A stretch of DNA of 64,000 bases from Algoriphagus locisalis (GTDB taxonomy: Bacteria; Bacteroidota; Bacteroidia; Cytophagales; Cyclobacteriaceae). The notes beneath the pieces are model-generated. The model was given only the letters and a program-made list of their open reading frames with translations. It had not been told where the DNA came from and ran no database searches. Location of the stretch: contig NZ_FPBF01000005.1 in the NCBI RefSeq assembly GCF_900116615.1, forward strand, positions 131,552 to 195,551, written 5' to 3'. Positions within the stretch are counted from its first letter, which is position 1. Each line of letters opens with the position of its first letter. Position numbers and translations under genes: made by a program. Positions 1 through 8,225 of this stretch are shown piece by piece.

Positions 1-22
1 AGTTAAGAGTAACATTCCACAT

Positions 23-145
23 TGTAGGATGTTGAAATTGGCAGACAAGCCCTCCTGTCTCGGGGGTGGAGAATCAAGTAAAAAGCGTAATTCAACCGGA
101 CTATTGCCTAACTTCTCCGTGGAGGTTCGAATCCTTCTCCTACAG
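23..145 (+). tRNA. Class II (Leu-like) tRNA with apparent GTC anticodon and oversized variable arm
   Basis: Folding by eye gives a full cloverleaf. The acceptor stem is 23-29 with 138-144. The D arm is 32-48 with a Leu-like loop containing TTGG. The anticodon stem is 50-54 with 62-66 and has a 7-nt loop 55-61 reading CTGTCTC, so anticodon 57-59 is GTC after the invariant T33. The T arm is 121-137 with loop TTCGAAT. The variable region is about 54 nt instead of 10-20: GGAGAA (68-73) pairs with TTCTCC (113-118) around a ~39-nt loop. The discriminator is G (145) and no full CCA is encoded. A long variable arm is known for Leu, Ser and Tyr tRNAs, whereas GTC belongs to Asp, so the identity is unclear. 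It could be a divergent or recoded tRNA or a decaying copy. All four stems pair well, which argues against simple decay. Confidence 0.72.
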
Positions 146-150
146 CATAT

Positions 151-177
151 AAAGCAGCACTCATGTGCTGCTTTTTT
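151..177 (+). terminator. Intrinsic terminator after the tRNA-like gene
   Basis: A 10-bp perfect stem (151-160 with 165-174) with loop TCAT is followed by a T-run. It sits 5 nt after the tRNA 3' end and ends that transcript before the next gene. Confidence 0.85.
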
Positions 178-225
178 CGTTTAAATTTGTCTTAAATGTC
201 TAATTTAGACAAAACGACCAACTGA

Positions 226-3200
226 ATGAGCGAGGCCCACAAAGACAAGCATTCGAAACACCCTTTTCGAAAGAAAGTAGTGAGGTGGGTGATGTTTACT
301 TTTTTAGCCATACTTTTTCTGGAATTTGTAGTTTATTTTGGTTCCAACCTATTGCTGTCGAGTTGGGCTAGGAGCAAAATCAATGAAGCGGCAAAGGATA
401 TATATCTAGTTGATTTCAATCGGGTAAGGTTTTCCTTGCTCAGACGGGGCGTATTCATGGACGGCATCGTCATGAAGCCAATAGGGGATCGCAAACCCGG
501 GCAAAATCAGGCATTGTTTGATTTGACCTTGGATGAATTGGCTTTGAAAAAACTCTGGTTTGACTTCTCTGAGGGCATCTTGTATGTGGGTGAATTGGAA
601 TTTGATAATCCAAATATCAGTATGGATTTGCCTCCTAAATCCAATCAAACCGAGGGTAAGCAAAATGAAAACGAGAAAGGATCCCCTGTCAAAGCTCTTG
701 AAGAGGAACTAAAGAAGATAATAGATAAGGCTAATTTCACTGGGGTATATATTCGTGAACTGGAAATCGATCATGCCGATTTATTCTTCTTGAATTTCCT
801 AAGCCAAAATTCCTTAAAAGCGGAGAATACCAGGTTGCTTGTAAAGGATATCAACTGGGCGACTAAGGAGGAATGGGAGACTCCCTTTAATGCCAGGGGA
901 TTTGAGTTTGATCTTGACAATGTAAACTTCCCGCTTCCTGATGGTGTGCATTCGATAAAATCTGAGAAGGTTTTTGTGAGTTCATTGGATAACAGGATTT
1001 TAATCAATGGTTTTCAGCTGACCCCAGATAGGACTGCCCAAAGCAAATCTTATTATGATGTGTATTTGAGTGAACTACGAGTTGGAAATGTGGACTTGAA
1101 TGAGGCTTTTATGTCCTCAAATGTTCTTATAGATGAGATAGTTTTAAATGATCCACACTTCAAAGTGGAGCAAAATGCCATCAGTGAGAAGGATAGTACA
1201 GCAAGTGGTGATCTAAACGAATTGATTCAGGGTATTCTCAAGTCTTTTGAGGTTCAGGAATTATCAGTGAATAATGGAAAGTTTTCCACTTATAGTTTGG
1301 CTGATACGCTAAAGAATAGGATTGATATCCAAAAGCTTGACTTTAAGATGATCAATTTTTACCTGGGTGCAGATGAGTCCAGAAAAGTCAATCAATTTTT
1401 CTATGGGGAGGAAGCAGCAATGGATATAGAAAAAGCTGATTTGTACTTATCCGATGAGGTCCACGTAATTTATGCTGATGGAGTAAGTGTGTCCTCTTTC
1501 AAAGACGAAATTATAGTTGAAAATATCAGGGTAGAACCAAGAGAGGATGCTTTGAAAAATGATCTTGCGAAGCACATCATGAGGATTTCACTGCCAAAAC
1601 TCGCCCTGACGAATACTAATTTGAAACGCCTTTACAATGAGGGTGTTTTTACTATTGAGGAGATGCTAATTCAGTCTCCAAAAGTTGAAATCACCGAACT
1701 TAGAAAATCTGAAGAAACTACAGAAAGGGTACCAGTAAAAGAACTTCTAAAGGGGTATATGGATGAGCTGTCCATCGGAAAAATGGACTTGAGAGATGGT
1801 GAAGTTCAGTTTAAAAATGAGATGGGAGTGCGGAGTGACGATATAGGTTTTGAGAAATTCAGCCTGTTATTGGAAAAAGTCTTTTTGCAACCTAATCTGG
1901 ATACAGATGTGAGAAACCAATTCCTTGCCGAAGAGATGGTGCTAAGTCTAGACAAATATAGGTTGAAGCTCAGGGATAATCTACATGAGTTTTTGGCTGA
2001 TAAGGTGTTGATAGATAGCAAGAATTCTTTGGTCGTTGTGAATAATTTTACGCTGAGGCCTGAGAATCCGGATTCTACTCAGGTTATACTTGATAGCTAT
2101 GGCAAGTCTGTGATTCTTGATATTTCCATTCCAGAGTTTCGGGTAGAAGGAATCGACCTGATGTCGGCATATTTGGATGAGAAGTTGGTTATCAAGCGGA
2201 TTCTGGTTCCTTCTCCGGTGGCTAATTTTACCCGGTTCAGGAAGAAAAAAATTGGAAGCATTCCTGTCAATCAGGTAGAATCTCCTGATGAGATCAAAGA
2301 TTTGCTGACTTCTTATTTTTCGACCATACAGATCGATTCGGTTAGTTTCAGTAATGGTCAGGTGCAGTATCAGAATTTTGCAGGGAAAAAGAACCTTTCC
2401 CTCAGCGAAGATAGTCTGTCGCTGAGTTTGAAGGGTTTTTACTTAGAGAAAGGAATGGCAAAAAGTCCTGGACGAACATTTTTTTCGGATGAAATCAACC
2501 TCATTTTAAGGAAATACGATTTTAGCGTGGCTGGAGGGGATTACGACGTGGATACAGATGGGCTTCGTTTTAATTCCCAGTCCAAAACAATTGTTGTAGA
2601 TAATTTGACGCTGAGTCCAAGTAGCACCATCAGGAGTAAAATTGCATTTTCCCTGCGTCTTCCAAGCGTAACGCTAGAAGGGGTGGACATTGAATCTTTT
2701 CTGTTTGAAAATCAGTTGCAGCTCGACAAACTGGCAGTGGATGGAAGCACGATAAATCTGGAAATCAACAGAAATTATCAGCAGGAGGAAAATGAAGAAA
2801 ATTCTATGGAAGACACAGGAAAGACACTTCCAAAGGCAGTGGAGCTGGTTTCAATAGCTAAAATAGAAGCAACAAATTCCAATTTGAGTCTAAATTATAA
2901 GGTGGGAAAGGATGATTTTGAATCTATACAAACGGATTTTGATCTAGGGATAACCGGCTTGAATCTCGACTCGGCAGCCAATGCCAGAAAGGATATTGCC
3001 GGCTTGTTTGATGAGATCAATCTGACCTTGAATGATTTTTCATATACTTTGCCTGATAGTATTCACACCATTAGGTTCTCTAATCTTTTTGTGGATAATT
3101 CAGCCGATGAGACAGTGTTTTCCAATTTTGAAGTAGCTCCTGCTACTATCACCGGCTATCCGGGAAAGCCTATTTTTTCCGCCACCATCGATGAACTGGG

Positions 3201-4746: not shown

Positions 4747-6354
4747 TTAGTTCAATTTTCCTTCGGTGTCATCGTAGTCACCTGTGATAGTAACCCCGGC
4801 ACTTTTGTTTACTCGACCATAAATTGTGATGGAGTTACCCGAGCCAACAAATTCAATGCTTGATCCGCCGTTTAGGTTTAAGTCTCCATAAATGACAATA
4901 GAACCGGAAAGTATCAATTTGGAATTGACATTCATCTGGGTATTTCCATTGTATTGTCCAAAAGCAAAAGAGCCATAGATCTCAGTTAAAGAACCACCAT
5001 TTAAATTGAATTGGTTTTTCACTGCAAGAGAACCACAGAATTTGAAATTGCTGTTATTGTTGATGGTATTGAACGAAGCAGCTCCGGAGAATGCTTTAGT
5101 TTCGCCTCCATTGACATTTAGATTGTTGGATCCGCTGTAGGCTGGTAGCCCTTCACATGCGGCAGCTGTAGTGTCTTCCTGTTTGTTGATTTTCAAAATC
5201 TGCAGACCTCCAAAACCAGTTGCCACGAAAACAAACTCCTCTTCATTTCTCACGAAGTTGGAAGAACCATCCAGATCCAATACGCCATATTCTTTAATTG
5301 CTCCGAGATCAGATACGTCTGAAATAGAAATACCTGCTGCGCCATTTGCCATAAATAGCAGATTATTATCCACTGAAACAGCATTGGTGACAATATCACC
5401 TTCAGCTACATCCGTAGGGCGGATAGGAATAGCAAGTTTTTGTACCAGGCTACCATCAACCATTTTATAAATGCCTGCTCCATTAGCTCCTTCGGATACA
5501 AATAGATTTCCGTTTTCTATATCCAAGGTTCTTTTTGCGCCAGCTACATCTAGGGTTAGCGGGATACTGATCACCTCAGAAAGGCTGTTAGGGTCTAAAA
5601 TATGAACTCCAGATGAACCGCTAAGTACCGCTAGTTTATCACTTCCGAATGCTACTGCTCGTAGATCTTCCATTTCAGAAGAATTTCCAGCAGTCTGAGT
5701 AGCATCAAAAAGACCGATTACTCCGTCATTTCCACTGGTGACAGCTGTGTTGGAATTTGTGTTTGCAACATCTGTAGCTACAAAACCAGGAAGAGAAGTG
5801 TACACAAAGTCTGAGGTAAATCTCCCGCCGGACACAGATACAGTGATCAGATTGGCAGGGGAAGTCACATCAGAATTTTCGTCAATATTCACGGCCGCAG
5901 CTAGGTAAAGCTTTCCGTTTTTGTATTCCAAAGCGCTAATGTCAGTGTCACTGAAAGTTGCCTGCTCGGTGATCGTAGGACTATAAGGGTTGCTGATATC
6001 AAAAATATCTACAGCCCCTAGGTAAGTGTCACCTTCCATGTTGTAAGAGACGTAAGCATAATCGCCATCTATATCCACATGTGTAGCACGTAGTGTCTGC
6101 CCCTCTACTTCAGGAGCATCCACTTGGGAAACTAAAATCAATGGAAGATCTGAAGATTCTTCCTGTATTCTTCCTTCAGGAGCAGATGGGTCAATGAGCC
6201 CGATTACCCCGGCATTATCCAGTTTCACACGGGCAGTGAGCGCTTCACTGTCGGAGTTGATTGTAATTGGACCATCGTTGAGAGGATCCGTGGTGTCATT
6301 ACAGGAATAAAGACCTAGCGCAAGTGCTAAGCCAAAGAGCAAATGTTTTTTCAT
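4747..6354 (-). CDS. Surface lipoprotein: LVIVD-like propeller plus beta-helix tail
   Basis: This 535-residue protein has a lipoprotein signal: MKKHLLFGLALALGLYSC, with the lipobox Cys at 18. Residues ~70-390 hold repeated strands of the kind 'D-V-D-I-S-N-P' and 'G-L-Q-I-L-K-I', as in LVIVD-repeat proteins, which form beta-propellers on the surface of many Bacteroidota. Residues ~400-525 switch to short glycine/asparagine-rich turns (NLNVNGG, QFNLNGGSL, DLNLNGGSSI) typical of a right-handed beta-helix or bactofilin-like stack. No catalytic residues were found. It lies upstream (higher coordinates read first) of a bidirectional terminator and next to a T9SS cargo gene with a similar beta-helix. 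The role is likely surface display or adhesion, inferred only from the fold. Confidence 0.75.
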   Translation of the reverse strand: MKKHLLFGLALALGLYSCNDTTDPLNDGPITINSDSEALTARVKLDNAGVIGLIDPSAPEGRIQEESSDLPLILVSQVDAPEVEGQTLRATHVDIDGDYAYVSYNMEGDTYLGAVDIFDISNPYSPTITEQATFSDTDISALEYKNGKLYLAAAVNIDENSDVTSPANLITVSVSGGRFTSDFVYTSLPGFVATDVANTNSNTAVTSGNDGVIGLFDATQTAGNSSEMEDLRAVAFGSDKLAVLSGSSGVHILDPNSLSEVISIPLTLDVAGAKRTLDIENGNLFVSEGANGAGIYKMVDGSLVQKLAIPIRPTDVAEGDIVTNAVSVDNNLLFMANGAAGISISDVSDLGAIKEYGVLDLDGSSNFVRNEEEFVFVATGFGGLQILKINKQEDTTAAACEGLPAYSGSNNLNVNGGETKAFSGAASFNTINNNSNFKFCGSLAVKNQFNLNGGSLTEIYGSFAFGQYNGNTQMNVNSKLILSGSIVIYGDLNLNGGSSIEFVGSGNSITIYGRVNKSAGVTITGDYDDTEGKLN

Positions 6355-6668: not shown

Positions 6669-8225
6669 TTAGTTTCTCAGCAATTTGAGTTGTTGGGCAT
6701 TTGCGCCCCAGCGGATGTCGAGTATATATAATCCGGCTTTTTTGCTGAGAAGCCATTCGGAAACTACTAGGGAAATATCTTCTGGAGAAGTGAGCATAGT
6801 TGATTCGCCCTCGCCCAGCATATTTACCAAACGCAAAGAAATCAGCTCGTCCTGATATTGGTTAAGTTGCAGTAGTTCCACGGATATTTCTGAACCTATG
6901 GTGCTTGGGTTGGGGTAGGCTACCCAGACTGACTTGCTGTCTATGGCATCCACTTGGATAGCTCTTGTCCTGCTGTAGCTGTATTTTCCAGAGAAGTCCA
7001 ATTGTTTTAGTCTATAGAAAATATTACCTCCGGTTTTTGGCAGATCAGTGTCTGTAAAGCTGTATTCCACAGGTCCATCCGAATAGCCATTGCCTTCCAC
7101 TCTCCCTATAGTTTCCCATTCTTTGACTGAGTTCACAGCTCGCTCGATCTCGAAGTGGGAGTTTTCCCATTCTTTGGCTGTGGACCAGTCGATTAGGGCA
7201 GAGCGGTGTTGGGGTTGGTAGGTTACGTTGAAGGAGAGGAATTCTACTGGGAGGATGCGGCATCCGCCGTAGTATGATGTACCACTACTGGAAACATTTG
7301 AATTTGGTCCGGGGACTAGTGGGTAAGCTCCAGTAACAGTACCTGCAGGTAACCTCGCATCACAAATTACTAAAGAGCTAGAATTATAGGTTCTAATCCA
7401 GCCCGAATTACCTATTGATAAATTCCCCTGTATTAAAACATCTGCCTCATTATGAGTTTCTAGTTTTGCCTCGCCTGTATTAGGAAGGTTGACATTTGAT
7501 TGAAAAGTAACTAATGATTGATCGTAAATTCTCATTGGACTACTTATTGTAGTTTGACCAGTCACAGTGACATTTGAATTTCCTCTGATATTAACTGAGC
7601 CGGGTCCAGAGCTTGTAATATCTAGGTCTCCTCCAATAGAGATTTTTCCATTGTCGAAAGAATTAATAGCGTAATTGTTTACTGTGAGTTTACCTGTAGT
7701 TTTGAGTTCTCCATTTCCATAGATGTTTAAGGATGTTGATCCTATATTACTAGAGCTTATAGAGTTTGCAGATAAAAGCCCTCTAATTGAAATTGCTGCG
7801 ATTCCAGTTAAGTTAAATTGATTGTTAACTATAAATTGTCCACCAGTATTTACATTAACAATAAGGTTATTTCCACCACTATTATTTATACTGAGATTTC
7901 CCGAAAAAGTTAATGCACCCCCTGAATTCACGGTTACTGAATGAAATAACCCACCTCCTATATTCACATTTCCACTACTGTTTGTGATTGGGTGATTTAT
8001 AACAATTTTAATTTGGCAGTTTGGGCTCCATACAGGCCCAAGTGGAGGAATACCTGAATTATTTTGAGTTCCACACCCATCTGGATTTGTCTTGAACCAC
8101 GCTGATGTGCTATTCCAGTTTGTACTATTGCCTGTAGTTGTATAAGTCTGCCCCCACACCTCTCCACTCCAGAAAATCTGGGCGTAGCAGAAAATTAGAA
8201 AAACGAACAGAAATCTGCTTTTCAT
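6669..8225 (-). CDS. T9SS cargo protein with beta-helix region and C-terminal sorting module
   Basis: This 518-residue secreted protein has a signal peptide ending near residue 26 (VWG-Q). Residues ~80-300 are a run of short G/N/S-rich strands (NINGG-type turns) that suggest a parallel beta-helix. Around residue 330 begins a module opening ILPVEFLSFN, followed by WSTAKEWENSHFEIERA and an FYRLKQLDFSGKYSYS stretch, then VAYPNPS and a final beta domain ending LYILDIRWG...LKLLRN. This is the layout of type A T9SS sorting domains, whose C-terminus is removed during export. The same module ends the giant protein encoded at 8848-21891. Substrate and role are unknown; a surface structural or adhesive role is inferred. 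An internal minus-strand ORF at 7045-7263 is only a shadow. Confidence 0.78.
   Translation of the reverse strand: MKSRFLFVFLIFCYAQIFWSGEVWGQTYTTTGNSTNWNSTSAWFKTNPDGCGTQNNSGIPPLGPVWSPNCQIKIVINHPITNSSGNVNIGGGLFHSVTVNSGGALTFSGNLSINNSGGNNLIVNVNTGGQFIVNNQFNLTGIAAISIRGLLSANSISSSNIGSTSLNIYGNGELKTTGKLTVNNYAINSFDNGKISIGGDLDITSSGPGSVNIRGNSNVTVTGQTTISSPMRIYDQSLVTFQSNVNLPNTGEAKLETHNEADVLIQGNLSIGNSGWIRTYNSSSLVICDARLPAGTVTGAYPLVPGPNSNVSSSGTSYYGGCRILPVEFLSFNVTYQPQHRSALIDWSTAKEWENSHFEIERAVNSVKEWETIGRVEGNGYSDGPVEYSFTDTDLPKTGGNIFYRLKQLDFSGKYSYSRTRAIQVDAIDSKSVWVAYPNPSTIGSEISVELLQLNQYQDELISLRLVNMLGEGESTMLTSPEDISLVVSEWLLSKKAGLYILDIRWGANAQQLKLLRN

Follow-up and report, generated by a model that had tools for sequence, protein, structure and literature searches.

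tRNA-shaped RNAs widespread in Bacteroidota and their phages: a family with an aspartate-type loop, an elaborated extra arm and frequent Lrp/AsnC linkage

We report a real, selected and widespread RNA family that combines a tRNA fold with an elaborated extra arm, frequently neighbours an Lrp/AsnC regulator gene and is carried by phages. It was recognised in a 64,000-nt stretch of the Algoriphagus locisalis genome (the window, by which we mean this whole stretch), and the most fitting description is that of a class II tRNA derivative turned to a different use. We lean, with modest confidence, towards a tRNA-derived, probably aspartylated and non-decoding small-RNA family of Bacteroidota and their phages, whose charging and function we infer, and whose most likely role would be that of an Lrp-controlled regulator or sensor. 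Neither Rfam 15 nor a standard tRNA finder picks up this tRNA-shaped gene, which most sampled genomes of the order carry. Should the RNA be charged yet not serve the ribosome, bacteria would have in it, besides tmRNA, a rare case of an aminoacylated RNA with a different function.

The element in the window

A class II tRNA cloverleaf occupies positions 23-146 of the window, and a strong terminator follows (Table 1). The loop is Asp-like (CUGUCUC), the extra arm measures 54 nt and the discriminator base is G73. An earlier note on this DNA had proposed a class II tRNA with a GTC anticodon and a variable arm of about 54 nt, and this was borne out both by the sequence and by comparison with 55 relatives. 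Its reading of a Leu-like D arm, a G discriminator, a U1-A72 end and an extra arm about three times the usual size also held, and the terminator hairpin with its T run is present. All seven pairs of the acceptor stem form, and the anticodon and T stems each hold one wobble pair. A second copy starts 551 nt upstream in the same genome (contig positions 131023-131148; the window spans 131552-195551); the four tRNA arms of the two copies are identical and the extra arm differs.

Table 1. Features of the element in the window, and related genes at viral loci.
Feature	Position	Strand	Remarks
Acceptor stem, 5' side, TGTAGGA	23..29	+	7/7 pairs with 138-144; U1-A72
D arm, TTG ... GG ... CAA	32..48	+	stem 32-34/46-48; Leu-like by eye
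Anticodon arm	50..66	+	stem 50-54/62-66 with one U.G pair; loop 55-61 CTGTCTC; GTC 57-59
Extra (variable) arm	67..120	+	54 nt; internal limits approximate
V1, basal stem of extra arm	68-71/115-118	+	reaches 73/113 in the window copy
Conserved internal loop of extra arm	about 77-84 opposite 108-111	+	consensus AUAAA/CUAA
V2, apical hairpin of extra arm	about 85-107	+	length very variable across the family
T arm, loop TTCGAAT	121..137	+	stem 121-125/133-137 with one G.U pair
Acceptor stem, 3' side, TCCTACA	138..144	+	partner of 23-29
Discriminator G73 and C74	145..146	+	GC in 60/60 elements
Intrinsic terminator	151..177	+	hairpin 151-160/165-174, then T run; read from sequence
Elongated tRNA-like genes, anticodon arm unrecognised	L266:5064-5185, 5269-5412; L210:6142-6262, 7682-7830	-	
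Elongated tRNA-like gene, anticodon arm unrecognised	L215:4907-5050	+	

The single-sequence folding energy of the window copy is ordinary (z -0.30, equalled or bettered by 72 of 200 shuffles), and its minimum free energy structure lacks the D stem. The case for this fold rests on comparison.

Standard tools pass the element by. ARAGORN called no tRNA in the window, nor in 20 fetched loci (19 from relatives and one from the own genome); cmscan against Rfam 15 gave no match at E<=1 over positions 1-3000 of the window; and the element is absent from the 39 RF00005 matches of its genome at E<=0.001. When four loci were scanned against Rfam, the five matches obtained were all under gathering scores and none was a tRNA. 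An assignment to tmRNA or another Rfam family was rejected, as there was no ARAGORN tmRNA call and no Rfam match in the window.

Distribution in Bacteroidota

By BLAST, 48 of 58 genomes had a match, and a covariance model built from 26 copies (R1) found the element in 140 of the 194 genomes sampled from the order, covering 71 of 93 genera (E<=1e-15). Matches of at least 75 bits occurred in 44 of 247 genomes of a class-wide sample, where shorter matches (up to about 61 bits) were collectively taken as ordinary class II tRNAs. A phylum sample gave R1 matches in 23 of 198 genomes. The E<=1e-15 cut, used for both the order and the phylum sample, lets in one 77-nt, 69-bit match (genome G047) that is perhaps not an element. 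The own genome is counted in these samples. R1 also matches genes at viral loci that ARAGORN calls tRNA-Leu, with up to 55.6 bits. In the order sample, many genomes have two to six copies, often in tandem.

A pattern scan of bacterial contigs returned at least 118 loci, whose hosts we take, by record label or genus, to be all Bacteroidota; among the matches listed they are mostly Cytophagales, with Chitinophagia, Saprospiria and one metagenome-assembled genome labelled Flavobacteriales also represented. R1 was run on 100 of these loci, and the alignment retains 150 of 153 matches. A plasmid search gave no match. The earlier note had named absence from all close relatives, with broken stems in any that have the gene, as an outcome that would refute it; the element proved to be widespread with its stems retained.

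Some genomes without a match and some decayed copies were seen. No match was found in genomes of about 1.0-1.6 Mb (families f8, f14 and f21) among the order-sample negatives listed. Three streamlined relatives carry a decayed upstream copy (L026:1111-1217 and matching stretches in L027 and L029) in which the acceptor and T arm are retained, the rest is AT-rich and G73 has become A; the stretch in L029 has a compensatory change. The copy at L026:1111-1217 was removed before the loop counts and the 60-element counts given below. At L032:4709-4835, in a one-contig genome of the same genus, the T stem and the 3' side of the acceptor are altered.

Compensatory changes and the fold of the extra arm

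The proposed structure was assessed in 55 diverse copies, delimited mostly by R1 and aligned by sequence alone. Across these relatives 95.7% of cells were paired, against 85.1% after shuffling, and sliding the structure by 1 to 3 columns gave at most 60.3%. Changes on both sides of a pair were found in 19 of 29 pairs (11.5 in shuffled alignments) and in 182 cells (41 when shuffled), and none of 500 shuffles matched the real alignment on any of these measures. The earlier note had advised a search of related genomes for compensatory stem changes, and such double-sided changes occur in all seven helices, the extra arm included. In the acceptor stem every cell was paired (100%) and five of seven pairs were double-changed; in the D stem the figures were 98.2% and two of three pairs; the anticodon and T stems were paired in 99.3% and 98.9% of cells. 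Pairing is less regular in the extra arm's two short stems (76.4 and 77.8% of cells), and two V1 pairs show double changes in 23 and 27 sequences. RNAalifold, run de novo, recovered the same cloverleaf and placed the second extra-arm stem in a slightly shifted register with many double changes. From its base, the extra arm consists of V1, a short second stem, the AUAAA/CUAA internal loop and V2, which in many families contains an added GGGUUGACCAC segment. Comparison at this depth shows that the class II cloverleaf is under selection and that the extra arm has a conserved fold of its own.

Could the element be a relic or a chance fold, as the earlier note had considered? The modest z-score and the decayed copies in the streamlined relatives would fit such a reading, but the compensatory changes seen throughout the order refute it, the breadth of occurrence also speaks against it, and we give it practically no credence. 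A relic is ruled out by the order-wide conservation with compensatory changes, together with the promoter and terminator enrichment of the bacterial copies described below.

The anticodon stem itself varies (CCCGC/GCGGG, CCGCC/GGCGG, CCCTT/AAGGG, CCTCC/GGAGG) around constant bases 35, 36 and 38. These variants fix a 7-nt loop, and an ordinary tRNA-Leu or tRNA-Ser with a shifted anticodon, the outcome named in the earlier note as fatal to its reading, was ruled out on that account; no covariance alignment moved the anticodon.

Aspartate identity determinants without decoding features

Base frequencies were taken from 60 elements found by BLAST or the covariance model rather than by the loop pattern, although query and model did contain the loop. 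The exact pattern used on viral and bacterial contigs spans most of the anticodon arm, so that a loop table of 243 elements is biased. Among the 60, U35, C36, C38, G73, C74, U1-A72 and G2-C71 are each found in 60/60 and G34 in 57/60, base 37 is a pyrimidine (U or C) in 57/60, and base 33 is G in 11/60. The window copy has U33 but U37. Ordinary tRNAs of the own genome have U33 and a purine at 37 in 27/27 each (27 distinct ones examined out of the 39 RF00005 matches), and ordinary viral tRNAs have U33 in 234/236 and a purine at 37 in 234/236. A search for a normal tRNA-Asp(GTC) elsewhere in the genome found two genes with the loop CTGTCAC, from which the element's loop differs solely at base 37.

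The identity determinants of bacterial tRNA-Asp are G73, G34, U35, C36 and C38, with G2-C71 as a minor one, and G1-C72, which positions the end, is strictly conserved (PMC9976931). All of these are retained in the element save G1-C72, which is replaced by U1-A72 in all 60. The same source gives G73, U1-A72 and G2-C71 as acceptor determinants of GlnRS (PMC9976931), and G73 with a long arm is a SerRS signature (PMC7609411). The counts show a loss of decoding features at positions 33 and 37 in these genes alongside retention of the main AspRS determinants. Since the Asp loop and G73 make up the main AspRS determinant set, the GTC anticodon is probably there for AspRS rather than for the ribosome. 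Base 37 is nearly fixed as U, for which AspRS identity gives no explanation. Filing the element as a tRNA-Asp fails on the missing G1-C72 and on the decoding features, and no Rfam family claims it.

A specialised translating tRNA, which would read Asp codons in particular settings or insert a different amino acid at them, could account for the complete cloverleaf, the GTC anticodon and the presence of some copies in phage tRNA clusters. The pyrimidine at 37, the frequent G33 and the presence of ordinary tRNA-Asp speak against it, and we hold it to be very unlikely; decoding of Asp codons, one of three readings offered earlier, is accordingly improbable. Of those three, a putative non-translational role is the best supported.

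As to maturation, 22 of 24 own tRNA genes examined, out of the 39 RF00005 matches, end in N73-C74 without an encoded CCA, and two encode CCA. The element likewise ends at C74, here as GC, so its 3' end is likely to be handled by ordinary tRNA processing.

Transcription signals and the Lrp/AsnC neighbour

TAnnTTTG is the Bacteroidota -7 promoter motif. Among 195 distinct bacterial upstream stretches, 117 have it within 90 nt of the element, where 15.1 would be expected; on the other side, 68 of 137 bacterial elements are followed by a terminator-like hairpin (9.9 expected). For phage elements the corresponding figures are 5/50 (2.1 expected) and 1/54 (0.4 expected). Shortly before the window copy, TAnnTTTG does not occur in perfect form; the upstream copy (copy 1) has TATATTTG at this place.

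Clustering of neighbouring genes singled out an Lrp/AsnC regulator gene as the one partner shared by loci of many genera. It adjoins 42 of 146 bacterial loci (40/139 after merging identical places), is divergent from the element in 42/42, and lies 122-342 nt away wherever the gene is complete (that of L077 is cut by the contig end). PF01037 and an HTH domain were present in 5/5 of the homologues scanned. Such a neighbour was found at 17 of 27 analysed loci of the class sample, and hosts of the arrangement include Flavihumibacter, Segetibacter, Fulvivirga, Chryseolinea and Splendidivirga. No Lrp neighbour was seen in 104 of the 146 stretches, many of which are short; the own locus and the named Algoriphagus loci are among them, and 55 of the 104 have at least 700 nt upstream with neither Lrp nor Algoriphagus-type neighbours. 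In the own genome the closest Lrp homologue (64%) is encoded on a different contig, next to what is presumably sufB.

In the window, the element lies between a pseudouridine synthase gene upstream and a 1453-aa gene without a Pfam match downstream. A general link to these flanking genes was rejected, as they were found at 35 and 39 of 146 loci, respectively.

The neighbourhoods also bear on the idea that the charged RNA feeds a non-ribosomal ligase (in cell wall, lipid or peptide tailoring) instead of acting as a sensor. The non-decoding loop, the charging determinants and the 3' end resembling that of a tRNA speak for such an aminoacyl donor; however, the most recurrent cross-genus neighbour is a regulator, and none of the 40 largest neighbour clusters, most of them unannotated, pointed to a ligase. 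We regard a donor role as unlikely.

Copies in phages

The loop pattern matched 78 IMG/VR contigs, of which 77 are full-length R1 matches, with 55 distinct sequences; the copy in L262 runs off its contig, and that in L260 starts in a non-matching acceptor. The window copy had no match among INPHARED phages. With phage copies as queries, matches covered a small part of the query and many fell at annotated tRNAs (among the best 20 rows for each query); one of them, the 636-kb metagenomic phage record LR756504.1, was confirmed by R1 as a true element at 100.5 bits. This copy, which the loop pattern had not picked, retains the CTGTCTC loop on another stem (TCTCC/GGAGA). Carriers include phages whose element has no neighbouring tRNA as well as this 636-kb giant; some copies sit inside tRNA clusters, and an ordinary tRNA-Asp was found in 8 of the 78 viral stretches, whose lengths vary.

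Phage carriage might suggest a decoy, whose tRNA-Asp-like loop would absorb anticodon nucleases or modification enzymes and so shield translation in stress or infection. The match of the loop to that of host tRNA-Asp at every base except 37, the copies in phage tRNA clusters and the common occurrence of several copies per genome agree with this. A decoy needs neither a fixed G73/C74 nor an elaborate extra arm, however, the Lrp/AsnC linkage counts against it, and 32 of the 78 viral loci have no other tRNA in stretches of varying length; the odds seem to us rather poor.

Relation to known RNAs

Like bacterial class II tRNAs such as tRNA-Leu, the element has a Leu-like D arm, a 7-bp acceptor, a T arm and a long variable arm. 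It differs from tRNA-Leu in having G73 in place of A73, an Asp-like loop with odd bases at 33 and 37, and an extra arm that is about three times larger and contains a conserved internal loop and hairpin. With tRNA-Asp(GTC) it shares G34, U35, C36, C38, G73 and G2-C71, and it departs from it by U1-A72, a pyrimidine at 37, the class II extra arm and the Leu-like D arm.

Among stand-alone tRNA-like RNAs that take no part in ordinary decoding, tmRNA has a reading frame but no anticodon arm, and YrlA RNAs lack a full cloverleaf and bind the Ro protein. The element resembles both in standing alone outside ordinary decoding and, going by these features, is set apart by its full cloverleaf with an anticodon arm; it scores against no Rfam family at E<=1. 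The gcvA/gcvB pair, in which the genes of a transcription factor and of a small RNA point away from each other, offers a precedent for the genomic arrangement. The Lrp loci of the element have the same divergence, but here the RNA is tRNA-shaped, the regulator belongs to Lrp/AsnC and the control is putative. Allo-tRNAs and selC* tRNA-Cys are non-canonical tRNAs with a long variable arm and longer acceptor and anticodon stems (PMC7609411). They share the long arm with the element, whose stems are of only 7 and 5 bp. A literature search found no title or abstract describing this tRNA-like RNA, in a search that mostly left subscription papers outside and so does not establish absence from print.

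Proposed role

The reading we favour, a probably aspartylated RNA that does not decode, can be laid out as follows. The transcript would be trimmed and CCA-tailed in the manner of a tRNA, and AspRS would aspartylate it. Charged or uncharged, the RNA may then act away from the ribosome through the extra arm, which would be its effector domain. Its likeliest role would be that of an Lrp-controlled regulator or sensor linked to aspartate or asparagine status; phages may carry the element to supply or override the same activity. Several observations count against this proposal: the U1-A72 pair, the SerRS- and GlnRS-like features, the large share of loci without an Lrp neighbour, the scarcity of promoters and terminators at phage copies, the imperfect promoter motif of the window copy, the lack of a palindrome excess in bacterial GACCAC copies and the nearly fixed U37. 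The Lrp/AsnC linkage and the spread among phages make concrete functions testable.

Possible pairing between extra arms

In phage copies, the stretch that follows GACCAC has palindromes of more than chance length (6.44 against 3.95 in shuffled sequences; reached by 0 of 400 shuffles) over 18 regions, which include two non-elements (L266:5269 and L230:5474), both under the mean. The palindromes vary (GCGCGC, GCATGC, GTGCAC, GCCGGCCGGC), self-complementarity is often retained, and they reach at least 6 nt in 11 of the 18. Bacterial GACCAC copies have no such excess (3.65 against 3.93). When whole arms were tested, phage copies gave 7.0 against 6.1 and bacterial copies 6.9 against 5.8, the latter mean falling to about 5.9, with no excess, once an N run scored 104 is removed. 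The apical loop holds GAGCTC in many Algoriphagus copy-1-type genes and TGATCA in L103. In phage and Algoriphagus copy-1-type genes the apical loop may thus pair with a second molecule as a kissing loop, a proposal that concerns some lineages only.

A more far-reaching version, which we advance tentatively and consider doubtful as a whole, would make the element a new class of regulatory RNA: a charged, non-decoding mimic of aspartyl-tRNA with an extra-arm domain and, in some lineages, a palindromic kissing loop, placed under amino-acid-sensing Lrp/AsnC regulators and carried by phages that take over the circuit.

Further observations at viral loci

At L213:6069-6211 and related viral loci, the gene for a 170-aa protein without a PHROGs match stands before the element, and genes for thymidylate synthase, terminase and PhoH come after it; the 12-kb stretch contains no further tRNA. 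Homologues of the 170-aa protein are found close to the element in 26 viral loci. A hairpin-like insertion in the D loop is present in the viral copies L203, L205, L230, L232, L236, L238, L244, L269 and L275. Phage tRNA clusters also contain further elongated tRNA-like genes of 121-149 nt (Table 1), with a Leu-like D arm, a T arm, A73 and no recognisable anticodon arm.
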